From Nitrospirota bacterium (GTDB taxonomy: Bacteria > Nitrospirota > 9FT-COMBO-42-15 > HDB-SIOI813): a stretch of DNA of 34,300 nt. The stretch lies in contig JAHFEQ010000008.1 of assembly GCA_023248395.1 (NCBI GenBank), forward strand, positions 1-34,300, written 5' to 3'. Numbering within the stretch: the stretch's first letter is position 1; every line of letters begins with the position of its first letter. The position numbers were made by a program, and so were the translations under genes. Shown in pieces: positions 1 to 16,117 of this stretch. The notes under the pieces are model-generated. The model saw nothing but the letters and a program-made list of their open reading frames with translations. It had not been told where the DNA came from and made no database searches.

Positions 1-917
1 AGGGTCTTTACATGCTGGAGGAAGTTCAACTGCTTGTTTGAAGTGGTCGCCGAAAAGTCCTGACGCTCGTAGATCAGGGACTCCCTGCCCGCCTTCCCCT
101 CTCCGTTAACGATGGTAATGCTGCTCTTCTTGCCAAAGGGTGGATTGGTCAGGACGATATTGAAACGGTCCCCAGGGTCCGAGATCAGGGCATCTCCCAC
201 CTCGATCAGGCTCTCCTCTCCACCAATCCCATGAAGGTAGAGGTTCATGACGCAGAGTCTTGCCACATTGTCGACGATGTCCTTTCCTTTAAAGGTATGG
301 TATTTGAGAAGCCTCTTCTGTTCTATATCCAGCTTATAATGTTTTGACAGATATTCATGGGCCGCCAGGAGAAACCCTCCCGTGCCGCAGGCAGGATCGC
401 AGATCGTCATGCCGGGCTGCGGCCTCGTCACCTCAACCATCGCCCTGATGAGCGGCCTCGGCGTGAAGTACTGCCCTGCACCGCTCTTGATATCCTCGGC
501 ATTCTTCTGCAGGAGCCCCTCATAGATCTCCCCCTTGACGTCGATGTCCATCCCCACCCATGTCTCGCCGTTGATGAGTTCAATCAGGCGTCTCAGTTTT
601 GCAGGGTCCTGGATCTTGTTCTGAGACTTTCTGAAGATGACCCCGAGCATCCCCTTGTCTTTTCCTAGGGTCTCGAGGATATGGCGGTAATGCGCCTCAA
701 GGGCATCCCCATCCCTCTCAAGGAGGCTCTGCCAGTCATAGCCTTTCGGAATGTTGGAAGGCTTGTTGAAGGGCGACCTCGTCTGCTCATCGGCCATCTT
801 CAGGAACAGAAGGTAGGTCAACTGCTCTACATAATCACCATAACTGACGCCGTCATCCCTCAGGACGTTACAGTAATTCCAGAGCCGCTGGACAATAGCG
901 GCGGATTCATTTGGCAT
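1..917 (-). CDS. hsdM: Type I restriction-modification DNA methyltransferase subunit HsdM (C-terminus off the window)
   Basis: Own minus-strand reading from ATG at 915-917: MPNESAAIVQRLWNYCNVLRDDGVSYGDYVEQLTYLLFLKMADEQ...GQYFTPRPLIRAMV...TICDPACGTGGFLLAAHEYL...NIVLTNPPFGKKSS; contains DPACGTGGFL and NPPF methylase motifs. Missing from the ORF track because it is partial. Confidence 0.95.
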   Translation of the reverse strand, partial: MPNESAAIVQRLWNYCNVLRDDGVSYGDYVEQLTYLLFLKMADEQTRSPFNKPSNIPKGYDWQSLLERDGDALEAHYRHILETLGKDKGMLGVIFRKSQNKIQDPAKLRRLIELINGETWVGMDIDVKGEIYEGLLQKNAEDIKSGAGQYFTPRPLIRAMVEVTRPQPGMTICDPACGTGGFLLAAHEYLSKHYKLDIEQKRLLKYHTFKGKDIVDNVARLCVMNLYLHGIGGEESLIEVGDALISDPGDRFNIVLTNPPFGKKSSITIVNGEGKAGRESLIYERQDFSATTSNKQLNFLQHVKT

Positions 918-1266
918 AAACGATCTCCCCTTCTTTGGCATAGGAGGCAATCAGGGAGGTCTCACTTTCATATTCCTCAGGGGTCATAGTGATGATATCC
1001 AGAGGGACCATAAATTTTTTGATGGTCATGATCTCAGCATCTTTAGTTAATTCTATTCTTTTAAAGATGTCTTTCCTCCTGAAATCCGCTGACACAATGA
1101 CAAGATCAATGTCACTTTCATCGGTCGCTCCACCCTTTGCATGGGACCCGAAGAGTATAATCTTTGAAATGTTTAACCCTCTTTCTCTTAAAATGCCTTC
1201 GAGGAATTTAATTATTCTGGTAACCTTGCTTTTAGACATTCTTAAGTTTTCTTTTTTGCTTTTCAC
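907..1266 (-). CDS. MNT-type nucleotidyltransferase domain protein
   Basis: IILFGSHAKGGATDESDIDLVIVS matches the GSxxxG...DxD minimal nucleotidyltransferase motif; overlaps hsdS and hsdM ends. Confidence 0.85.
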   Translation of the reverse strand: MKSKKENLRMSKSKVTRIIKFLEGILRERGLNISKIILFGSHAKGGATDESDIDLVIVSADFRRKDIFKRIELTKDAEIMTIKKFMVPLDIITMTPEEYESETSLIASYAKEGEIVYAK

Positions 1267-2702
1267 AAGACTTTCTCTTTGGTTATCTTCGCCTTCCTAT
1301 TACTTTCCAATTTTGCCTTTTCTGCCTTGATTCGTTCGAGCAACTTCTCAGCGGGTTCATCTGATGGGTCCTGAGGCACCAGCTTCCCCTCAAAGGCCCT
1401 TTTCAAGATGCTCTGCCGCAGCCTCTCCGCCTGCTTGAGGCTCTGCTCCACCACCTTCTCCACCTCATCCGCCACAGAGAACCGGCGTTCGATCTCTTCA
1501 ATGATCTTGTGCTGTTCGGGTAGAGGAGGGAGGGGAATGGGTATGTTCATAATAGTATCCCTATCAATTCCCGGGACAGTTGAACCAGCACCTAATCTTT
1601 GAAATAAATGAAAACTAAAATGTACAAAAAAGAAAACATAGCTGGGATTTACATACCATCCTCGAACTGCCATCAATTGCCGGCTAATAGCTGCGTCTTC
1701 AAGATGAAGAATATTTACCTTACCTACGCCTGCCCCTTTTACTGTTATTAAAATATCATTCTTCTTGGCTATAGCCTTGGGTTTTGTAGTCCATTTCGAA
1801 ATAATGGGGTATTTTAAACCAAAATCAGCCGGCCCTGTTAAATAAGGCACGCCTATAGAATCAAAATTATAATCTCCCGTTAGTATATGTTGTCCTGAAA
1901 CTAAATCCGAAATCTCCTCAATCCTCGTCCAAACCCAACCCACTGGTAATTCAAGCAGGTCGTCATTGTGAGCCGAAGGCGAAGCAATCTCATCTTTTAA
2001 AATCGCTTCGGTCATTTTACTCCTTCGCAATGACGGGCGAGAGGACTTTCCTTTTGTATCCTTTTCCCGTTCCTCTTCAATACGCATCAATAACTCAGAA
2101 GCAGGCTCAATCTTACCTTTATTCGCCTTCCGCCATTCCTCGGTCAACTTCCCCTCAAAAGCATACTTCAAAACCGCCTGACGATACCGCTTCAACTCCA
2201 CCTTCACCTTCTTCAGCGCCTCAACCCCAGCATCCAGCTTCGTAAAAACCTCCTCAATCTTGGCAACAATGCGATATTGTTCGGGGAGAGGGGGGAGGGG
2301 GAGTGATGATTTTTCTAAAAACTGAAAATGTCTAGCATATCCTTTATCAGGCAATTGGATAGCCTGCAAAAAATAATAAAATAGTTTTGGATAAAATACT
2401 TCTAAAGGCTTTATGACTTTGACACCATCAGCACCTGCAATAAATTCAAAGTCAACATACTTAACAACTTTTGTATGGTCACCAAAAATTATTACAGGCA
2501 ACTCACATGAAATTTTAAATTTCTCTTTATTTGTATATCCGCCTATAAAAGATTGTCCTTGGTCAATAACTGGCAGTCGCCCTTTTTCCTGATACTCGCT
2601 CTGTTTTAACTTTTTACCAGTTAGTGAAACTTTTTTAACAATCTCCCCCATCCTCGTCCACACCCAGCCTTTGGGGAGAGAAGGATAGTTATTGCTATTC
2701 AT
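1263..2702 (-). CDS. hsdS: Type I restriction-modification specificity subunit HsdS (two TRDs)
   Basis: Two half-repeats, each starting LP.GWVWTR and ending PLPPLPEQ(Y/H)(R/K)I...(L)K.AFEGKL. Confidence 0.95.
   Translation of the reverse strand: MNSNNYPSLPKGWVWTRMGEIVKKVSLTGKKLKQSEYQEKGRLPVIDQGQSFIGGYTNKEKFKISCELPVIIFGDHTKVVKYVDFEFIAGADGVKVIKPLEVFYPKLFYYFLQAIQLPDKGYARHFQFLEKSSLPLPPLPEQYRIVAKIEEVFTKLDAGVEALKKVKVELKRYRQAVLKYAFEGKLTEEWRKANKGKIEPASELLMRIEEEREKDTKGKSSRPSLRRSKMTEAILKDEIASPSAHNDDLLELPVGWVWTRIEEISDLVSGQHILTGDYNFDSIGVPYLTGPADFGLKYPIISKWTTKPKAIAKKNDILITVKGAGVGKVNILHLEDAAISRQLMAVRGWYVNPSYVFFFVHFSFHLFQRLGAGSTVPGIDRDTIMNIPIPLPPLPEQHKIIEEIERRFSVADEVEKVVEQSLKQAERLRQSILKRAFEGKLVPQDPSDEPAEKLLERIKAEKAKLESNRKAKITKEKVL
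1961..2035. repeat. 75-bp palindromic MITE/REP-like repeat (cgtcattgtgag...cttcgcaatgacg) inside hsdS
   Basis: Imperfect inverted repeat with CGTCATTG/CAATGACG ends and inner gaagcaatc.../...atcgcttcg; in frame within the HsdS inter-TRD linker (SSRPSLRRSKMTEAILKDEIASPSAHNDD). Confidence 0.8.
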
Positions 2703-4578
2703 CTTTTGCTTTCTTTATATTTTCCATCCTACCCTCAAGGTATCTTTTCGTTTGTTCTATTCTATGCCTTATGTGATTTGGATAATCAGTAAGGTTCAAC
2801 TTTCTAAGGTTTTTTAATAGGGTCTCAATTATCCCCAAATTACTGCTTTCTCGCAGGAGTAAAAGCTTATAAGATTCATCTATAAACATATGCACATCTA
2901 TTCTGAATAGATTTTCGATTTCATATCTCTGCGTTTTATTATCATGCAATATGTCATTAAGAAACTTGGCGAAGAAGGTAACACGAGTATCTGTATCAAA
3001 CATTGCCTGTCTAATAGCTTCCTCTCTTCTTTGCAGATTTGCATTGAGAAAGCAAAGAAGCATAGCACGTTTGACTTGGTAGTTCAGTTCTTCATTAAAG
3101 AGATTCCAAAGACGTATCATATTCCGAGCAGATAACTGGAAGTAAGATAATGCCATTAAACAGTTTGCTCTTATTGACCAATGCATTTTTACATCAGTTG
3201 CATACCTATACAAGGTGGCTTCCAAGGAAGTTGGAAGGTGATTTTTATACCTGTAGATTTCTACAAAGCGTGCGATTTGATATTCAAAAATTTCATCATG
3301 ATTTTTGACAAAGGATAAGACATTCTCTGGGATTTTTTCTCCCTGGTGGAAACCTTTAAAGTATTTTACTATTTTATCTGTGAGAGCAGGGGTGTCTTCC
3401 ATCGCGCTAAAACATCTATAAATGGCACTCCTACTTTTTATCAGAGTTAATGCAGTGAGTAATCTTTTGAATAATCTCACATCCTTTGATTTCAGTTTTC
3501 GAGGAATTTGTTTTAAATATACCTTTAACTTTGCTTCATATTCCTCACACTCCTGTCTGGTTAGCTTACCTGCCTGAGCATTCTTTTGAATATCATCTAC
3601 TATGGGAGACAATTGTTCAAATCTTTCATCATGGATATACGAGAACAATTCAGGGTCGGTATAGATATCTGTTTTCGCTGTCTGAACATTTAAATGCAGC
3701 CCTCTTAACTCTCTATTTAAAACAAATAAGGCCCTTCTGGCATCATTTTTGGTTTTTGCTAATATCTTTACATCATCCATATAGCGGAGGTATTTGATAC
3801 CATGCTCTTGTTCAATTTTTGTAAGCACACGGTCTAATGGAATCAAATAAACATTTCCAAGATAACTACTGATATCGTTTCCTTGAGGGATTCCTCTATC
3901 AACGCGATTTCCCTGAGGAGGTAGCACAGTCCATTGTCCTAAGATATCGACAAGAAGATTGACTGGATAATGATCAGGACTGCCAATACAAGATATCAAT
4001 GTGGATTTAAGAACCTCATGGTTAATGTTCTCAAAATAGGCGGTAATGTCCGTTGTTGCCAAAAAATGATATCCCTCATTGAGGATATACTCTTTCATTT
4101 TTTGATCGAATGCCGGCCATGCATTATACCAATCTTCAAATTGTTTAATCTCTTTTCTTTGTTCGATTGGAAGGAGCGAAATATCTCTATCTTCGAACAG
4201 CCGGTCAGTTTTGCGTTTTTCTTTTGGAATGACTCTGCAGGAATAGACATTATCTGGTAAATCTTTATCAATCTCGTCTGCTATCACGTTGATTATCGCA
4301 TAGAGAACGATAAAGTCTTCAAAGTCAATCACTGTACCTGGTCTTGTTGCAAGGCCAGACTTTGGAACTTCAACTTCTAAAGGAACTTTTGGCCTATATT
4401 GTCTTTGTAATAACTTGTTCCTAAGCTCACTTAATAGACGTTTGCTGCTATGAGTATAATCTTGATGTCTGACAAGGTCTGGAATGAAGAATCGTTTTGC
4501 TCCATCTTTTGCGTAATTAAAAGCAAGTTTAAGATTATCTAAGGATGCAATCTGTTTAAGAAGTGTGCTTTCACTCAT
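2695..4578 (-). CDS. Reverse transcriptase with long C-terminal helical extension (Abi/UG-like candidate)
   Basis: Motif A TTDITAYFENI, motif GIPQGND, catalytic YMDD (3772-3783) in KYLRYMDDVKIL; roughly 350 aa follow YMDD, mostly predicted-helical in appearance. No maturase/endonuclease motif recognised. Confidence 0.9.
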   Translation of the reverse strand: MSESTLLKQIASLDNLKLAFNYAKDGAKRFFIPDLVRHQDYTHSSKRLLSELRNKLLQRQYRPKVPLEVEVPKSGLATRPGTVIDFEDFIVLYAIINVIADEIDKDLPDNVYSCRVIPKEKRKTDRLFEDRDISLLPIEQRKEIKQFEDWYNAWPAFDQKMKEYILNEGYHFLATTDITAYFENINHEVLKSTLISCIGSPDHYPVNLLVDILGQWTVLPPQGNRVDRGIPQGNDISSYLGNVYLIPLDRVLTKIEQEHGIKYLRYMDDVKILAKTKNDARRALFVLNRELRGLHLNVQTAKTDIYTDPELFSYIHDERFEQLSPIVDDIQKNAQAGKLTRQECEEYEAKLKVYLKQIPRKLKSKDVRLFKRLLTALTLIKSRSAIYRCFSAMEDTPALTDKIVKYFKGFHQGEKIPENVLSFVKNHDEIFEYQIARFVEIYRYKNHLPTSLEATLYRYATDVKMHWSIRANCLMALSYFQLSARNMIRLWNLFNEELNYQVKRAMLLCFLNANLQRREEAIRQAMFDTDTRVTFFAKFLNDILHDNKTQRYEIENLFRIDVHMFIDESYKLLLLRESSNLGIIETLLKNLRKLNLTDYPNHIRHRIEQTKRYLEGRMENIKKAKDE

Positions 4579-4589
4579 AATTTAAGGAG

Positions 4590-5717
4590 CTATGCGACAT
4601 CTCGAAACTTCTGAATGTCCCTCTCCGGGCAAAATTCATCTGGAATAAGTTCTAACACGGTTGTCTTAAGCCTATTCAAGTTTCTCTGGCTAAGAAAGTC
4701 ATGGTGCTGGAGAATACCAACAACAATGGTCGGACTTATTTCAAATTCCTGCGCACAATTCAAAACCCTATCCATTGAAATATATCTTTTATAGGGTTCA
4801 AAATATCTTAATATCTCTTTTGCCTTAAGTATCTTTTCAGCAAACTTATTCGCCGCTTTCTCTTTTTCTGTATTTAGGTCATCCAGATTATCTATAAAGC
4901 GGTCATCTTGCTTTTTAAGATGCAATAGGATATGTGCAATTTCATGGGCAAGAGTAAACCAGAAATTATCTATTCTGTCATGTCTGGCTGTATAAACAAT
5001 GACCGGATTTGAGTTATCAAAAAAGGACGCCCCGTCTATGTAGGTCTTCTGAAGGTGGCTCAGGGCAAAGAACTTGATACCACTTTCATTGAGTTTCTTA
5101 AGAACGGTTTCCACTCCATCTTCTAAGATGGTATATCTAAAGAGATAGTCAGCCAGGACTTGTAACGCATCCTTGTCGTATTTCTTTACTTTATAGAATC
5201 TTGCACATCTCTGGGCCATCTTAAACCAGGTATAGGCATAGTACTTATTGTATTGTGTGAAGGCTTCAGACTTTCTAAAGTTCATTGAAGCATCATCTAT
5301 AAAAGAAAAATCTAAAGTGGGGATCCCCCAGAATTTTTTTATTTCATTAACCAAATCATCAATAGTCTTAAGAGATTTTAACCAACCTTTTTTAATCATT
5401 TCCTTAACAGGCATGTATTTATAGATATTCGCCCTAATTTTCACATCTTTTTCTTCAACCCCCTCTTTTTGGAGCCTCAATCTATAATTTGTATCAAGAT
5501 TAATCCAGTATTGCGGAGATTGTCCAAAAGCCTTGCTTAACAGCTTTGCGGTTTCGATAGTAATAGCCTGCTTATTTATAATAAGCTTGTTCACATTCTT
5601 TAAAGAGATCCCAAGTATATCCACCAGGTCTTTCTGTCGCCAATTACGGGCCTCCAGTTCTTCTTTGATGAATTTACCTGTTCCAATGTTTAAAAAAGGA
5701 GCATATTTATTTCCCAT
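4590..5717 (-). CDS. XRE-family HTH + ImmA/IrrE-type metallopeptidase domain protein
   Basis: N-terminal HigA-like HTH (WRQKDLVDILGISLKNVNKLIINKQAITIETAKLLSKAFG), C-terminal FWFTLAHEIAHILLHL (HExxH). Confidence 0.88.
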   Translation of the reverse strand: MGNKYAPFLNIGTGKFIKEELEARNWRQKDLVDILGISLKNVNKLIINKQAITIETAKLLSKAFGQSPQYWINLDTNYRLRLQKEGVEEKDVKIRANIYKYMPVKEMIKKGWLKSLKTIDDLVNEIKKFWGIPTLDFSFIDDASMNFRKSEAFTQYNKYYAYTWFKMAQRCARFYKVKKYDKDALQVLADYLFRYTILEDGVETVLKKLNESGIKFFALSHLQKTYIDGASFFDNSNPVIVYTARHDRIDNFWFTLAHEIAHILLHLKKQDDRFIDNLDDLNTEKEKAANKFAEKILKAKEILRYFEPYKRYISMDRVLNCAQEFEISPTIVVGILQHHDFLSQRNLNRLKTTVLELIPDEFCPERDIQKFRDVA

Positions 5718-5774
5718 GATTAATCCTCATTTAGGAAGTGTTTTAATATGTTTTGTCCGTATCTTATCAGCTTG

Positions 5775-7166
5775 TCAATTCCCTGTCTCCTCAATTATTT
5801 TTCTCCCTCGTCCTGTGAGAATATACCTACCACCTTTATCAGGCCCGATTCTCTCAAGCAGGCCTTTCTCTTTGAGGTTTCTAATATTTTCTTTAATTTT
5901 CCTTTCAGAAATTCCTACTATAGAAGATAATTTATTTGCCGTTATATATTCATATCTCCTAATCTCTCCTAAAATCCTGATCTGGTTTTCAGTGACCTTT
6001 TCAGTGACCTTTTCAGTGACCTTTTCAGTCTTACCGGCAATCTTGAAATATTCACGGCTTGGAGTGAAGGTTATATAAAAATAATTTTCATTATATTCTA
6101 TTTTTGGATAAGGAGTATTTTCTTTTCTACATATTCTCCTCATTCTACCTATTCCCGTCCCCATCTTTTCACCAAAATGGATTCGGGAAAATAGATCAAC
6201 AATCAGGTGATTTCTTCTAAAGACTGTTTCACCGAGTGTAAAGTGCCGAGGTTTTAGCCAGAAGTTCTCAATTTTTATTTTGCCGGGTAGAAATTTTAAG
6301 ATATTGTTATGTCCGTGCTCGAAATAATACTTATGCATAACCGAATTGATTACGGCCTCCCTTATAGCCTCGAACGGATACTCATATATCTCTTCCCTCT
6401 GTGGTTTTCCGGTAAATCTGTAAGCAACCTTGGAATAAAGTTTTACAAAGTCCATCACCTGTTGAACTATCTCAAAGAGACCACCACCTATCTCTTTCCT
6501 GTCAATGACATCCACCCCCTCTATATCCTTGAATAAGGCGACTGTAAAAACAGACCAGGGTGTAAATCTCTGCGGTTCCCTGGCGAAAAATAGTACCCCT
6601 GCATTGTTGAAATATAGCTTGCCTTCCTGTTTTTCTGCGACACCTAAATTAAGCAGGATCGTCTCAGTATTCGTCGATTTTGAGAGTCCAGCGAGTTCTA
6701 AAAATCTCAACAGTTTATTCTTATCAAAATCCTTTGGATAATTAAACTTCAGATCTATCAGTTCATCAAATCTTATTTTCCCTTCAGATTTGAAAAAGTC
6801 AATGATTTCGTCCCTTGTCATCTTCTGTGAGTTAGGACCTAACCTCTTGAAAAACCCGGCAGAGCACTCATATGGCTTCTCATCGCCCTCCCTGACATGG
6901 ACTATCAGGATGTTTTCAAATTCATCAAACAAAATTTTTACTTTGGGCCGGCAGTTGTTTGCGATGTCCTGGATCTGTGATTTCAATCTATTGGAAATCT
7001 GAACACCTTTTATTTTACCATCATCAGTTATACCAATGAAAATTCTGCCACCTGATGCATTGGCAAAAGCAATGATCTCTTTGTCCAAACCGTTTGTATT
7101 CTCCTTAAATTCAATCTTGTAGCCTTCACCTTCTTGCAGAATTAATTGAAGTTCCTTTTTATTCAT
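5775..7166 (-). CDS. AlbA_2/Schlafen-type putative ATP/DNA-binding protein with C-terminal winged helix
   Basis: EFKENTNGLDKEIIAFANASGGRIFIGITDDGKIKGV is a typical AlbA_2 signature; C-terminal HTH-like ITANKLSSIVGISERKIKENIRNLKEKGLLERIG. Confidence 0.85.
   Translation of the reverse strand: MNKKELQLILQEGEGYKIEFKENTNGLDKEIIAFANASGGRIFIGITDDGKIKGVQISNRLKSQIQDIANNCRPKVKILFDEFENILIVHVREGDEKPYECSAGFFKRLGPNSQKMTRDEIIDFFKSEGKIRFDELIDLKFNYPKDFDKNKLLRFLELAGLSKSTNTETILLNLGVAEKQEGKLYFNNAGVLFFAREPQRFTPWSVFTVALFKDIEGVDVIDRKEIGGGLFEIVQQVMDFVKLYSKVAYRFTGKPQREEIYEYPFEAIREAVINSVMHKYYFEHGHNNILKFLPGKIKIENFWLKPRHFTLGETVFRRNHLIVDLFSRIHFGEKMGTGIGRMRRICRKENTPYPKIEYNENYFYITFTPSREYFKIAGKTEKVTEKVTEKVTENQIRILGEIRRYEYITANKLSSIVGISERKIKENIRNLKEKGLLERIGPDKGGRYILTGRGRKIIEETGN
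5986..6030. repeat. 12-bp tandem repeat (ttttcagtgacc, about 3.7 copies)
   Basis: ttttcagtgacc x3 + ttttcagt; encodes (TEKV)n linker of the AlbA_2 protein. Confidence 0.9.
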
Positions 7167-9979
7167 GCCGCCAGCACCTCGTTCAGATCCTCAAGGATAC
7201 GGTTCACCTCCGGCCCAAAGAGCTGGTGAATCCTGACAGGGCCACCCTTCTCATAGAACGGCGCTAATTCAAGGTCTTCCATGCTGATGCTCAGGGAGGT
7301 GGCGATGTGCTCTTTGATCATCGAGAGCCATTCCCTCTGTTCCGGAGTGAACCGTTTCCCGGCCTTTTCATGATCCAACAGCCATCTGCTAAATCTCCGG
7401 TCCACGGTCTCTGAGAAGGGTTCAAGGATGTTGCTCTCTCCTACGGCAAAGCGGATCAGGGAGATGATGTTGGTCAGGAGCTTTTGCGGCCCTACCCCTC
7501 TGACCTTTGCTTTCTCCAGGTGTTCATAGGCCTGCCAGAGGAGTTCAGGGGTGAGGTTATAGGGCGGTCTTTTGATGGCATCCGCAAGTTCCTTGATCTC
7601 TTCATACACGATGTGACGTCTGCGATAGGGTTTACTGTAGATGATCTGGAGCGCCGATAGCTCATCCCTTTTCTCTTCTATGAATCGCTTGAAGGTATCC
7701 ACAACGGTCCGGGCCTTCTCCTTTGCCTTCTCATCGAAGCCGGCAAAGAGGAGCGCATCTTTGCTTACCGTATCGATGATCTGTTCACTCCTCTTTTTGA
7801 TCTCGATCAGGGTATTTCTCAATACCGGATTGTCAAAAGGGGAACAGGCCACCTTCACCAACTCGTCTGAGGCCTGACGGATCTGCTCTTCTGTCGGCAC
7901 ACCGGTCTTGAAAATCTCCCGTGCCTTCTCTATCTTTTTATCCGGGTCCACGGCATCCAGCAGGTTGTTGATGATCTCTTTTAAGGGCTTCCCATCGGCG
8001 GCAGTCTCTATCTCTCTCCCGTCCTTTTCATCGATCTCTTTCGCCAGCCTTGCAAGCCTTCCGGCCAATGAAATAAGTGTATCCTCGTCCCTATTCCCGA
8101 GGGCAACCGACAGTATGAGTTTATCAAAGGGGATGCCCCTCTTACGCTCCAGCGGCCTTGAGTCTGTCTTGTCATTCTCACAGACCCCCACGGCATCGAT
8201 GATCACAAAGTGGGTTTTATGAACGGCATCGCGTGTGACCGCGTTCAGATCTGTAGGAGAAATAACTCTCGTGCCCCGCCCTTTCATCTGCTCAAAGTAG
8301 ACCCTCGATTTCACATCCCGCATAAATAAGAGGCACTCGAGGGGCTTTATATCCGTGCCTGTTGAGATCATGTCTACGGTCACGGCGACGCGGGGATTGT
8401 AGGAGTTACGAAAACTGGCGATGAGGTCTTCAGGCTTTTCGCCTGTCGTCTTATAGGTGATCTTTTTGCAGAAGTCATTTCCCTTACCAAATTCTTCCCT
8501 GACGATATGGACGATATCTTCGGCGTGGGAATCGTCTTTGGCAAAGATGAGGGTTTTGGGGACATCATTTCTGCCGGGGAATATCTCTGTAAAGAGCTTT
8601 TCCTTAAAGGTCCTGATTACAGTCCTGATCTGATCGGGCGCCACCACATCCCGGTCTAACTGGATCGGTGCATACGCCAGCTCTTCGTCTAATTGCTCCC
8701 ATTTGGTCTTTCTTGTGAGCTTGTCCCTCCTGTCGACATAATAGCCGGCATCCACCTTACTCCCCTTTCCCGTGATCTCGGTCTCGATCCGGTAGACCTC
8801 GTACCCCACATTGACACCGTCTGCAACGGCACGCTCATGGCTATACTCCATGACCAGGTTCTGGTTGAAAAAGCCGAGGGTCTGTTTCGATGGTGTTGCG
8901 GTAAGCCCTATGATAAAGGCGTCAAAATATTCGAGGACCTGTCTCCAGAGATTATAAATAGAGCGGTGGCATTCATCGGTGACGATAAAGTCGAAGGTCT
9001 CAATTGGAATCTGAGGGTTATACAGGACCTCCCTTGCCCTCTCCTCTTCAGGTAAGATATCGAACAGGGACCGCTCTTCCAATTCTGCATCTAACCCCGG
9101 CTCCCCCTTTAGCATGGAATAGAGCCTTTGAATCGTGGTGATGCAGACCCGGCTGACAGGATCGAGGGTATTGGAGGCGAGGTGTTGGACATTGTAGAGT
9201 TCTGTAAACTTCCTCCCGTCATCGGGTGTGACATACTGCTGGAATTCCTTCTTCGCCTGACGCCCCAGGTTACTCCTGTCGACCAGGAACAGGATCCTTC
9301 TTGCATTAGCGAATTTGATCAACCGGTAAATGAAGCTCACGGAGGTATAGGTCTTGCCGCTGCCGGTGGCCATCTGGATGAGCGCCCTCGGTCTTGCCTC
9401 TGAAAAGGATAGGTCGAGGTTTTTGATGGCCTCGATCTGGCAGTCCCTTAATCCCCCCCTTCCCGTTGCAATGCTTCGCAGCAACGAGAACCCAGCCCCT
9501 TTACTAAAGGGGGGTGAGGAGGGAATCAGAGGCGGCATTTGCTTCAGTCTTGTTCGGAGGGTGGCGCTGTTTGAAAGCCACTCTTTCAGGGTCTCCGGCT
9601 TATGAAAGGCAAACACCCTTCGGGAGCGTGTTTCGGGGTCCCGCAGATCCCTGAAAAAGGTCTCAACACCGGTACTCTCATAGGCAAAGGGGAGGGGCTC
9701 CTGGACATGGGGGAGATTCTCAGGGACTCCAACCAGGTAGGCCTGAGATTGCTCTGCCACGCCGCTTAATGTCGTTCCTTCTGGCTTTGCCTCTACAACA
9801 CCAGCCGCCTTTCTATCCACGAAGAGGAGATAATCGGCAGTACCGGATTCGAGAGGAAACTCCCGGACAGCGATACCCAGGGCGGCACTGAGATTTAATT
9901 CCCTCAGGTCTTGCACCTTCCAGCCAGTGGCTTCCAGCAACTTGTCTATATTTTTCCTTGCCTTTTCCTCAGGTTTCAT
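7163..9979 (-). CDS. hsdR: Type I restriction endonuclease subunit R (EcoEI-like)
   Basis: GLRDCQIEAIKNL, Walker A MATGSGKTYTS, DECH box (VTDECHRSIYNLWRQVLEYFDAFIIGLTATP), C-terminal EcoEI-like region. Confidence 0.95.
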   Translation of the reverse strand: MKPEEKARKNIDKLLEATGWKVQDLRELNLSAALGIAVREFPLESGTADYLLFVDRKAAGVVEAKPEGTTLSGVAEQSQAYLVGVPENLPHVQEPLPFAYESTGVETFFRDLRDPETRSRRVFAFHKPETLKEWLSNSATLRTRLKQMPPLIPSSPPFSKGAGFSLLRSIATGRGGLRDCQIEAIKNLDLSFSEARPRALIQMATGSGKTYTSVSFIYRLIKFANARRILFLVDRSNLGRQAKKEFQQYVTPDDGRKFTELYNVQHLASNTLDPVSRVCITTIQRLYSMLKGEPGLDAELEERSLFDILPEEERAREVLYNPQIPIETFDFIVTDECHRSIYNLWRQVLEYFDAFIIGLTATPSKQTLGFFNQNLVMEYSHERAVADGVNVGYEVYRIETEITGKGSKVDAGYYVDRRDKLTRKTKWEQLDEELAYAPIQLDRDVVAPDQIRTVIRTFKEKLFTEIFPGRNDVPKTLIFAKDDSHAEDIVHIVREEFGKGNDFCKKITYKTTGEKPEDLIASFRNSYNPRVAVTVDMISTGTDIKPLECLLFMRDVKSRVYFEQMKGRGTRVISPTDLNAVTRDAVHKTHFVIIDAVGVCENDKTDSRPLERKRGIPFDKLILSVALGNRDEDTLISLAGRLARLAKEIDEKDGREIETAADGKPLKEIINNLLDAVDPDKKIEKAREIFKTGVPTEEQIRQASDELVKVACSPFDNPVLRNTLIEIKKRSEQIIDTVSKDALLFAGFDEKAKEKARTVVDTFKRFIEEKRDELSALQIIYSKPYRRRHIVYEEIKELADAIKRPPYNLTPELLWQAYEHLEKAKVRGVGPQKLLTNIISLIRFAVGESNILEPFSETVDRRFSRWLLDHEKAGKRFTPEQREWLSMIKEHIATSLSISMEDLELAPFYEKGGPVRIHQLFGPEVNRILEDLNEVLAA
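9450..9527. repeat. Palindromic repeat (aatcccccccttccc...ccctttactaaagggg...gggaatc) with nested hairpin, inside hsdR
   Basis: CCCCTTTACTAAAGGGG-type palindrome and internal CGTTGC AATGCTTCGCA GCAACG hairpin; encodes IPSSPPFSKGAGFSLLRSIATGRG between MPPL and GLRDCQ. Confidence 0.75.
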
Positions 9980-14573: not shown

Positions 14574-15914
14574 TTACCTGATTACCTCTCCCTTCAAAGA
14601 TGCAAGGGTCGCTGAGGTGATCCTGACTGTCAGAATATCGCCTGCCGAGATATCGTCCTCCCTGGGTATATGGACAATCTTAGTCCCCCTGGTACGGCCC
14701 GTCATATTCCCTTTATCCCTCTTACTCTCCCCTTCTATCAAGACATTAAATTCCCTGCCGATACAGGCCTGATTTTTTTTCAGGGTGATACGGTTCTGTA
14801 TCTCTAATACCCTGTTTAGCCTGTCTTTGCCGGTCTCGTGGGGGACCTGTTCTTCATAAAGGCGTGCAGGTGTGTAGGGCCTCTTTGAATATTTAAAGGC
14901 AAAGATGCTATCGTATTGAAGCTCTTCTAATGCCTCAAGGGTCTTATTAAAGTCATCCTCTGTCTCTCCCGGAAATCCTGTAATAATATCCGCTGTAATG
15001 GTAACATCCGGGATGGCCTCACGTAACTTTCTGATCTTCTCTTTATATTCCGGGTAGGTATAATTCCTCTTCATCCGCTCAAGTACACGATCCGAACCCG
15101 ATTGCAACGGCAGATGGAGGTGCTCGCATACCTTCGACAGCTTTACCATGGCATCAATCAGTCTGTCCCCAAAATCCGCCGGATGCGAGGTGATAAATCG
15201 AATCCTCTTAATACCGGAGATGTCATTGATCATGTGGAGCAGATCCGCAAGATCGACATTATTCCCCAGATCCTTTCCGTAGGAGTCTACATTCTGGCCC
15301 AGCAGCGACACCTCTTTATAACCGGCGGATGCAAGCCCCCGGATCTCGCTGCATATCTCCTCTGGCTCCCTGCTCCTCTCGCGCCCCCGTGTATGAGGGA
15401 CCACACAAAAGGTACAGAACTTATCACACCCATCCACAATATTTACATATCCCATCATAGGGTGATTTCTCAGCACGGGAAGACTACTGACCTTTTCCGT
15501 CTTTAACGTCAATCCCTTCCTCCGCCTCTCTGTAGATACACGGCCCTTTGATGTCTCCACCTTTTTCTCAAGGAGCTTTGGGATGTCCGAAATATTATCT
15601 GTCCCGAACACCATGTCCACATAAGGGGCCTTCTTCACGATCTTCCCGCCCTCCTGCTGGGCCACGCAACCCCCCACCCCTATCAGCAGGTCTGGGTTCT
15701 TCTTCTTAAGCTCCAGCAGTCTCCCCAGGTCACTGTAACACTTATACTCTGCCTTCTCCCGGACGCTGCACGTATTGAGGATAATCATGTCGGCGCCATC
15801 CGGAGAATCCGTCAGGGAGTAACCTAATTCGGACAGTACCCCGGCGATCTTCTCTGTGTCGTGCTCATTCATCTGGCAACCAAAGGTCTTGATAAAAAGT
15901 TGCTTCGCCATCAA
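14574..15914 (-). CDS. miaB: tRNA-2-methylthio-N6-dimethylallyladenosine synthase MiaB
   Basis: IKTFGCQMNEHDTEKIAG, VDGCDKFCTFCVVPHTRGRERSR, HLPLQSGSDRVLERMKRNYT. Confidence 0.95.
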   Translation of the reverse strand: MMAKQLFIKTFGCQMNEHDTEKIAGVLSELGYSLTDSPDGADMIILNTCSVREKAEYKCYSDLGRLLELKKKNPDLLIGVGGCVAQQEGGKIVKKAPYVDMVFGTDNISDIPKLLEKKVETSKGRVSTERRRKGLTLKTEKVSSLPVLRNHPMMGYVNIVDGCDKFCTFCVVPHTRGRERSREPEEICSEIRGLASAGYKEVSLLGQNVDSYGKDLGNNVDLADLLHMINDISGIKRIRFITSHPADFGDRLIDAMVKLSKVCEHLHLPLQSGSDRVLERMKRNYTYPEYKEKIRKLREAIPDVTITADIITGFPGETEDDFNKTLEALEELQYDSIFAFKYSKRPYTPARLYEEQVPHETGKDRLNRVLEIQNRITLKKNQACIGREFNVLIEGESKRDKGNMTGRTRGTKIVHIPREDDISAGDILTVRITSATLASLKGEVIR

Positions 15915-16117
15915 TAATTAACCTCCCCATCTAAAATACCTTGTCCTGCCTAAAAATGCAATATCTGTGCTCAATGAAAAACCCCGCAGCCAACGGAGGT
16001 ATTCAATCTCCCCTCCCTTGATGTACAACACCTTTCTGTGCATCTTATACCCTGAGCAGCATAGGTCCTTGTGCATATTTGCCTTTCATGCTCTCTTTCG
16101 TGTAATATCTCTTTAAG

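Follow-up and report, generated by a model that had tools for sequence, protein, structure and literature searches.

The window, a 34,300-nucleotide stretch of DNA, carries on its minus strand an operon whose order (5' to 3') is hsdR, Schlafen AlbA_2, XRE-ImmA, reverse transcriptase (RT), hsdS, MNT nucleotidyltransferase and hsdM. The first gene is an EcoEI/EcoAI-like hsdR (7163..9979), followed by a gene for a protein with Schlafen AlbA_2, HATPase_c_4 and winged helix-turn-helix domains (5775..7166) and by a HigA/PD-Lambda-2_B-like gene combining an XRE helix-turn-helix with an ImmA/IrrE (Peptidase_M78) domain (4590..5717). The RT, of 627 amino acids (2695..4578), precedes an hsdS specificity subunit with two Methylase_S stretches (1263..2702), an MntA-like MNT-type nucleotidyltransferase without a HEPN partner (907..1266) and the N-terminal part of hsdM (3..917), which is incomplete because the contig starts at the first base of the window. 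Since hsdR, hsdS and hsdM all lie on one strand, the locus is a type I restriction-modification (R-M) operon, as the initial annotation had proposed, although the MNT gene between hsdS and hsdM had been missed there.

The RT gene is an open reading frame with intact catalytic motifs (motif A TDITAYFEN, RGIPQGN and RYMDD) and an RVT_1 domain match at residues 161-309 (6e-15). As previously described, it sits between the XRE-ImmA gene, whose stop lies 11 nt upstream, and hsdS, whose start shares 8 nt with the RT stop (ATGAATAG). The gap of 57 nt that had also been assigned to its surroundings separates the Schlafen and ImmA genes, and the flanks of the RT are +11/-8 nt. Stop/start overlaps are common throughout the operon, with the hsdR stop overlapping the Schlafen start (ATGA) and the GTG start of the MNT gene overlapping the hsdS stop (GTGA). 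Therefore, the RT/hsdS overlap is not special. In promoter and terminator scans, the counts differed from those of shuffled sequences by no more than about 1.5 sd.

The window's hsdR contains a 21-aa in-frame insert at ~residues 154-174 (near 9450-9520; SPPFSKGAGFSLLRSIATGRG), which is missing from four homologues and resembles an interspersed repeat through which the frame stays open. In hsdS, the two target-recognition domains are separated by a spacer that contains a repeat-like stretch near 1961-2060, with an 83% copy in L099; this stretch could change the length of the spacer.

Family of the reverse transcriptase

The best profile for the window RT was PADLOC RT_UG21, which aligned residues 12-534 with positions 3-489 of 503 (1e-113); UG19 came second (1e-71). 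Relatives were collected by an alignment-based scan of genome contigs, a single-sequence scan having returned none, and the UG21 profile was matched by all 19 full-length relatives aligned. In a maximum-likelihood tree, a 20-row UG21 clade was separated from UG19 with a support of 100/100. The window RT shares with PADLOC RT_UG21 the near full-length profile match, the domain order and the conserved motifs, but differs in being embedded between hsdR and hsdS together with XRE-ImmA and Schlafen genes. By contrast, it scored only 99.6 bits against the group II maturase model TIGR04416 (cut-off 300) and 37.3 against the St85 retron RT model (cut-off 235), and no further Pfam domain, HNH and maturase domains included, was found in it. 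A group II maturase was rejected on these scores and on the lack of a maturase/HNH domain, and a retron RT on the score, the +11/-8 nt flanks and the lack of an Rfam retron match. The earlier assignment to the UG/Abi-type RTs, rather than to maturases or retrons, was thus borne out.

The RT of the closest sister operon (L019) has ~68-69% amino acid identity with that of the window, and nonsynonymous divergence is ~1/10 of the near-saturated synonymous divergence. As judged from this comparison, the RT is conserved as a protein and under purifying selection. No close UG21 match was found among phage records, plasmids or viral contigs, and we found no report of an activity, product or phage phenotype of a UG21 RT in the literature. 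UG21, a DRT family predicted to be anti-phage, seems not to have been characterised so far. Its neighbourhoods may already be listed by Mestre et al. (2022). At L017:6190-9136 (G027:C4), a UG21 RT was observed in pieces with an IS3-like transposase inside.

The hsdR-hsdS interval and the R-M genes beside UG21 RTs

The window's hsdR is present in 51 of 396 genomes of its phylum, and we compared an operon family of 39 members (37 from the phylum in addition to the window and L019). The hsdR-hsdS interval, which in the window spans 4460 nt (2703..7162, minus strand) and holds the Schlafen, XRE-ImmA and RT genes, was empty in 18/39 operons, the two genes overlapping (mostly by 4 nt) or lying <=2 nt apart. 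The content of filled intervals differs between operons and includes ParE and HigB toxins, a PIN protein, AAA proteins and a transposase-like ORF; within the family, the RT occurs in the window and L019 only. In several operons with a filled interval, the 3' end of hsdR recurs within that interval, and this copy outscored every shuffle. The L019 copy (53 nt, 92%; 9135-9187 and 9908-9960) flanks an MNT-HEPN pair on both sides and stops about 40 nt short of the RT; the duplication was also observed in L111, L116, L117, L119, L120, L121 and L127, and weakly in L099. No such copy was found in the hsdR-hsdS interval of the window. The duplicated ends look like the trace of a recombination event in which a cassette was gained, and suggest a possible route of cassette arrival. 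Overall, the window RT appears to be exchangeable additional cargo and not an integral component of the restriction enzyme.

The initial annotation considered an RT as an internal cistron of hsdRSM unusual, but there are precedents for defence genes in the hsdR-hsdS interval, namely TgvAB (PMC11411939) and DarTG2 (PMC12255303). The window resembles TgvAB, DarTG2 and RloF in having defence cargo at the hsdR/hsdS interval of a type I R-M operon, and differs in that the cargo includes an RT. AbiA-type RT-HEPN proteins were noted in R-M operons in 2013 (PMC3710099); they are likewise defence RTs encoded within such operons, whereas the window RT belongs to a different RT family and has no fused HEPN, some of its relatives having separate HEPN genes. 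The window adds to these a UG21 RT carried as cargo inside a type I operon, UG21 being a family that has joined R-M genes repeatedly. The cargo slot illustrates a way in which R-M operons may acquire defence genes, and the operon family supplies naturally occurring controls with and without cargo.

Among 19 non-redundant full-length UG21 loci, window included, an R-M gene directly adjoins the RT in 10. In six of the 19 this neighbour is hsdS or an hsdM-hsdS fusion: hsdS lies beside the RT in the window, L024 and L026, the RT of L027 is adjoined by hsdS and hsdM, that of L032 lies 260 nt from hsdS, and that of L037 lies beside the fusion. A type IIG gene is the neighbour in L022, L020 and L029, and a mod-like N6_N4 methylase follows a 70-aa ORF in L031. 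R-M genes are further off on the same strand in L019, L025 and L036, and a same-strand R-M gene was absent from the fetched stretch in L021, L023, L028, L030, L034 and L035, some of these contigs being short. UG21 RTs are thus paired with R-M systems of type I, type IIG and, likely, type III, and at loci other than the window the RT comes after hsdS or the IIG enzyme, or before the mod-like gene. The adjacency to hsdS seen in the window therefore recurs in related genomes. Methylase_S is rare in the relatives (99 genomes gave about 119 domain matches, in fewer genes), and under random placement it would be very unlikely for 6/19 loci to lie beside hsdS (1e-15 with p set to 0.0006, 2e-8 with p 0.01 and 2e-4 with p 0.05, an assumed defence-island rate).

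Related RTs adjoin different R-M types, as the IIG-associated L029 neighbours the type I-associated L024 and L026 on the tree, indicating that the pairing has been remade repeatedly. Clustering of the R-M labels on the tree was no stronger than in shuffles (7 changes, shuffled mean 8.7, 82/500 as low). As a control, 2/7 UG19 loci adjoin R-M genes versus 10/19 UG21 loci; this difference is not significant (Fisher p 0.39), so R-M attachment may not be specific to UG21. L062 and L014 are type I and type III examples in UG19. The recurrence of UG21 RTs beside type I, IIG and likely type III systems suggests a link between innate restriction and a DNA-synthesising abortive defence.

A coupling specific to hsdS, as the initial annotation had read the 8-nt overlap, was rejected: in the sister operon L019 (~69% identical RT), two genes stand between RT and hsdS and the overlap is not kept, overlaps are general in the operon, and the slot is empty in 18/39 operons. 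The hsdS of L019 is itself split into two ORFs of 255 and 206 aa (14598-16045).

Predicted structure and space for an ncRNA

An AlphaFold2 model of the RT, based on the 19-relative alignment, reached a pLDDT of 87 and a pTM of 0.87. The palm and fingers occupy residues ~1-310, and beyond ~residue 310 the chain is modelled entirely as helices, with a predicted alpha-helical repeat domain at ~316-626, in line with the long helical tail expected from the initial annotation. When the PDB was searched with Foldseek, the model matched DRT6 (E 8.6e-12), DRT4, UG15, Abi-P2 and AbiK best over its full length, whereas DRT9, DRT2 and group II RTs ranked later or matched chiefly the RT part. DRT4 is a single-gene, template-independent maker of random ssDNA, and DRT6 is its relative (PMC13213688, PMC13314766). 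The window RT is like DRT4/DRT6 and Abi-P2/AbiK in joining an RT to a predicted alpha-helical repeat with no adjacent ncRNA, but it differs in its low identity to them (12-16%) and in moderate TM-scores (0.40-0.53 to DRT4/DRT6, by query). By sequence, the nearest solved RTs over the RT domain were group II RTs and then Drt2, and in profile comparisons of this domain Drt2 scored higher than UG15/DRT4, while structure favours DRT6/DRT4. By analogy with its best structural matches, the window RT probably performs template-independent DNA synthesis; since at the sequence level its RT domain resembles DRT4 less than it does group II RTs or Drt2, this is a reading that we infer, and the catalytic mode is uncertain.

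Flanking gaps of UG21 RTs are often below 85 nt or negative, on both sides in many loci, with overlaps in several. Rfam scans gave chance-level matches only in the operon and nothing credible beside the RT in five relatives. There is no room for an adjacent ncRNA at the window RT or at most relatives, and the earlier statement that an msr-msd would not fit held for both. At L032:21371-21469, a DUF3800-V RNA (Rfam) was observed about 9.5 kb from the UG21 RT, in a locus that also carries a DUF3800 gene.

Proposed function of the RT and alternative explanations

The best-supported reading, which we consider reasonably probable, is that the RT is an accessory defence RT of the abortive type, probably template-independent, which is cargo of the type I R-M operon, co-expressed with it and probably working independently. 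The UG21 RT would oligomerise and, upon phage infection, may synthesize template-independent, protein-primed DNA as DRT4, DRT6, AbiK and Abi-P2 do; the product would then arrest or kill the infected cell. The RT would thereby constitute a second, mostly independent defence layer against restriction-evading phages. Its placement with R-M genes would serve co-expression and co-transfer, and direct contact between the RT and HsdS would not be required. The R-M association of UG21 exceeds that of purely random cargo, which counts against the cargo reading, as does the lack of an hsdR-tail copy in the window. Taken together, the observation made in the initial annotation was confirmed, and its interpretation was partly supported; for the RT it had proposed a part in the R-M function or an abortive backup triggered when restriction fails.

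Such a backup would be wired to the R-M system, with restriction breaks, stalled HsdR or inhibition of HsdS/HsdM activating the RT, so that R-M acts as sensor and the RT as fallback effector. PrrC with PrrI offers a precedent (PMC3506569), and UG21 RTs adjoin the target-recognition genes of several R-M types (hsdS, IIG, likely type III mod), related RTs standing beside differing types. We nevertheless regard this wiring as unlikely, because 6/19 full-length loci have no nearby R-M gene, gene order and partner vary, the closest sister RT is not beside hsdS, and the protection given by embedded TgvAB did not depend on HsdR activity (PMC11411939). Synthesis from an RNA template, in which an ncRNA or part of the operon mRNA would be copied into repetitive or toxic cDNA in a class 2-like manner, as in DRT2, DRT9 and DRT10, would suit the RT domain sequence, which has more in common with group II RTs and Drt2/DRT9 than with DRT4, and the intact QG and YMDD motifs. 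It appears quite improbable given that neither flank exceeds about 85 nt in many loci, the lack of a credible Rfam match and best full-length structural matches that are template-independent RTs.

It would be distinctly speculative to consider UG21 RTs as dedicated R-M partners, activated by restriction breaks or a blocked target-recognition subunit and adding untemplated DNA at breaks or making toxic ssDNA, which would turn failed or overwhelmed restriction into abortive defence. A non-defence RT, left in the operon as the remnant of a maturase-like enzyme, a retron or a mobile element, is very improbable, the weak likeness to the TIGR04416 and St85 models being far under their cut-offs and opposed by the clear UG21 match, the purifying selection, the absence of an HNH/maturase domain and the lack of msr-msd room.

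Regarding possible partners of the RT as cargo, the window has no effector-like gene directly downstream of it, the XRE-ImmA and Schlafen genes being upstream. Effector-like neighbours of other UG21 RTs are a Cap4 nuclease (L025), SLATT_5 (L035) and the HEPN-like Ymh (L024). In the sister operon, a trypsin-like protease and PRTase-CE follow the RT (L019:11918-14558) and resemble components of retrons XI and III-A.
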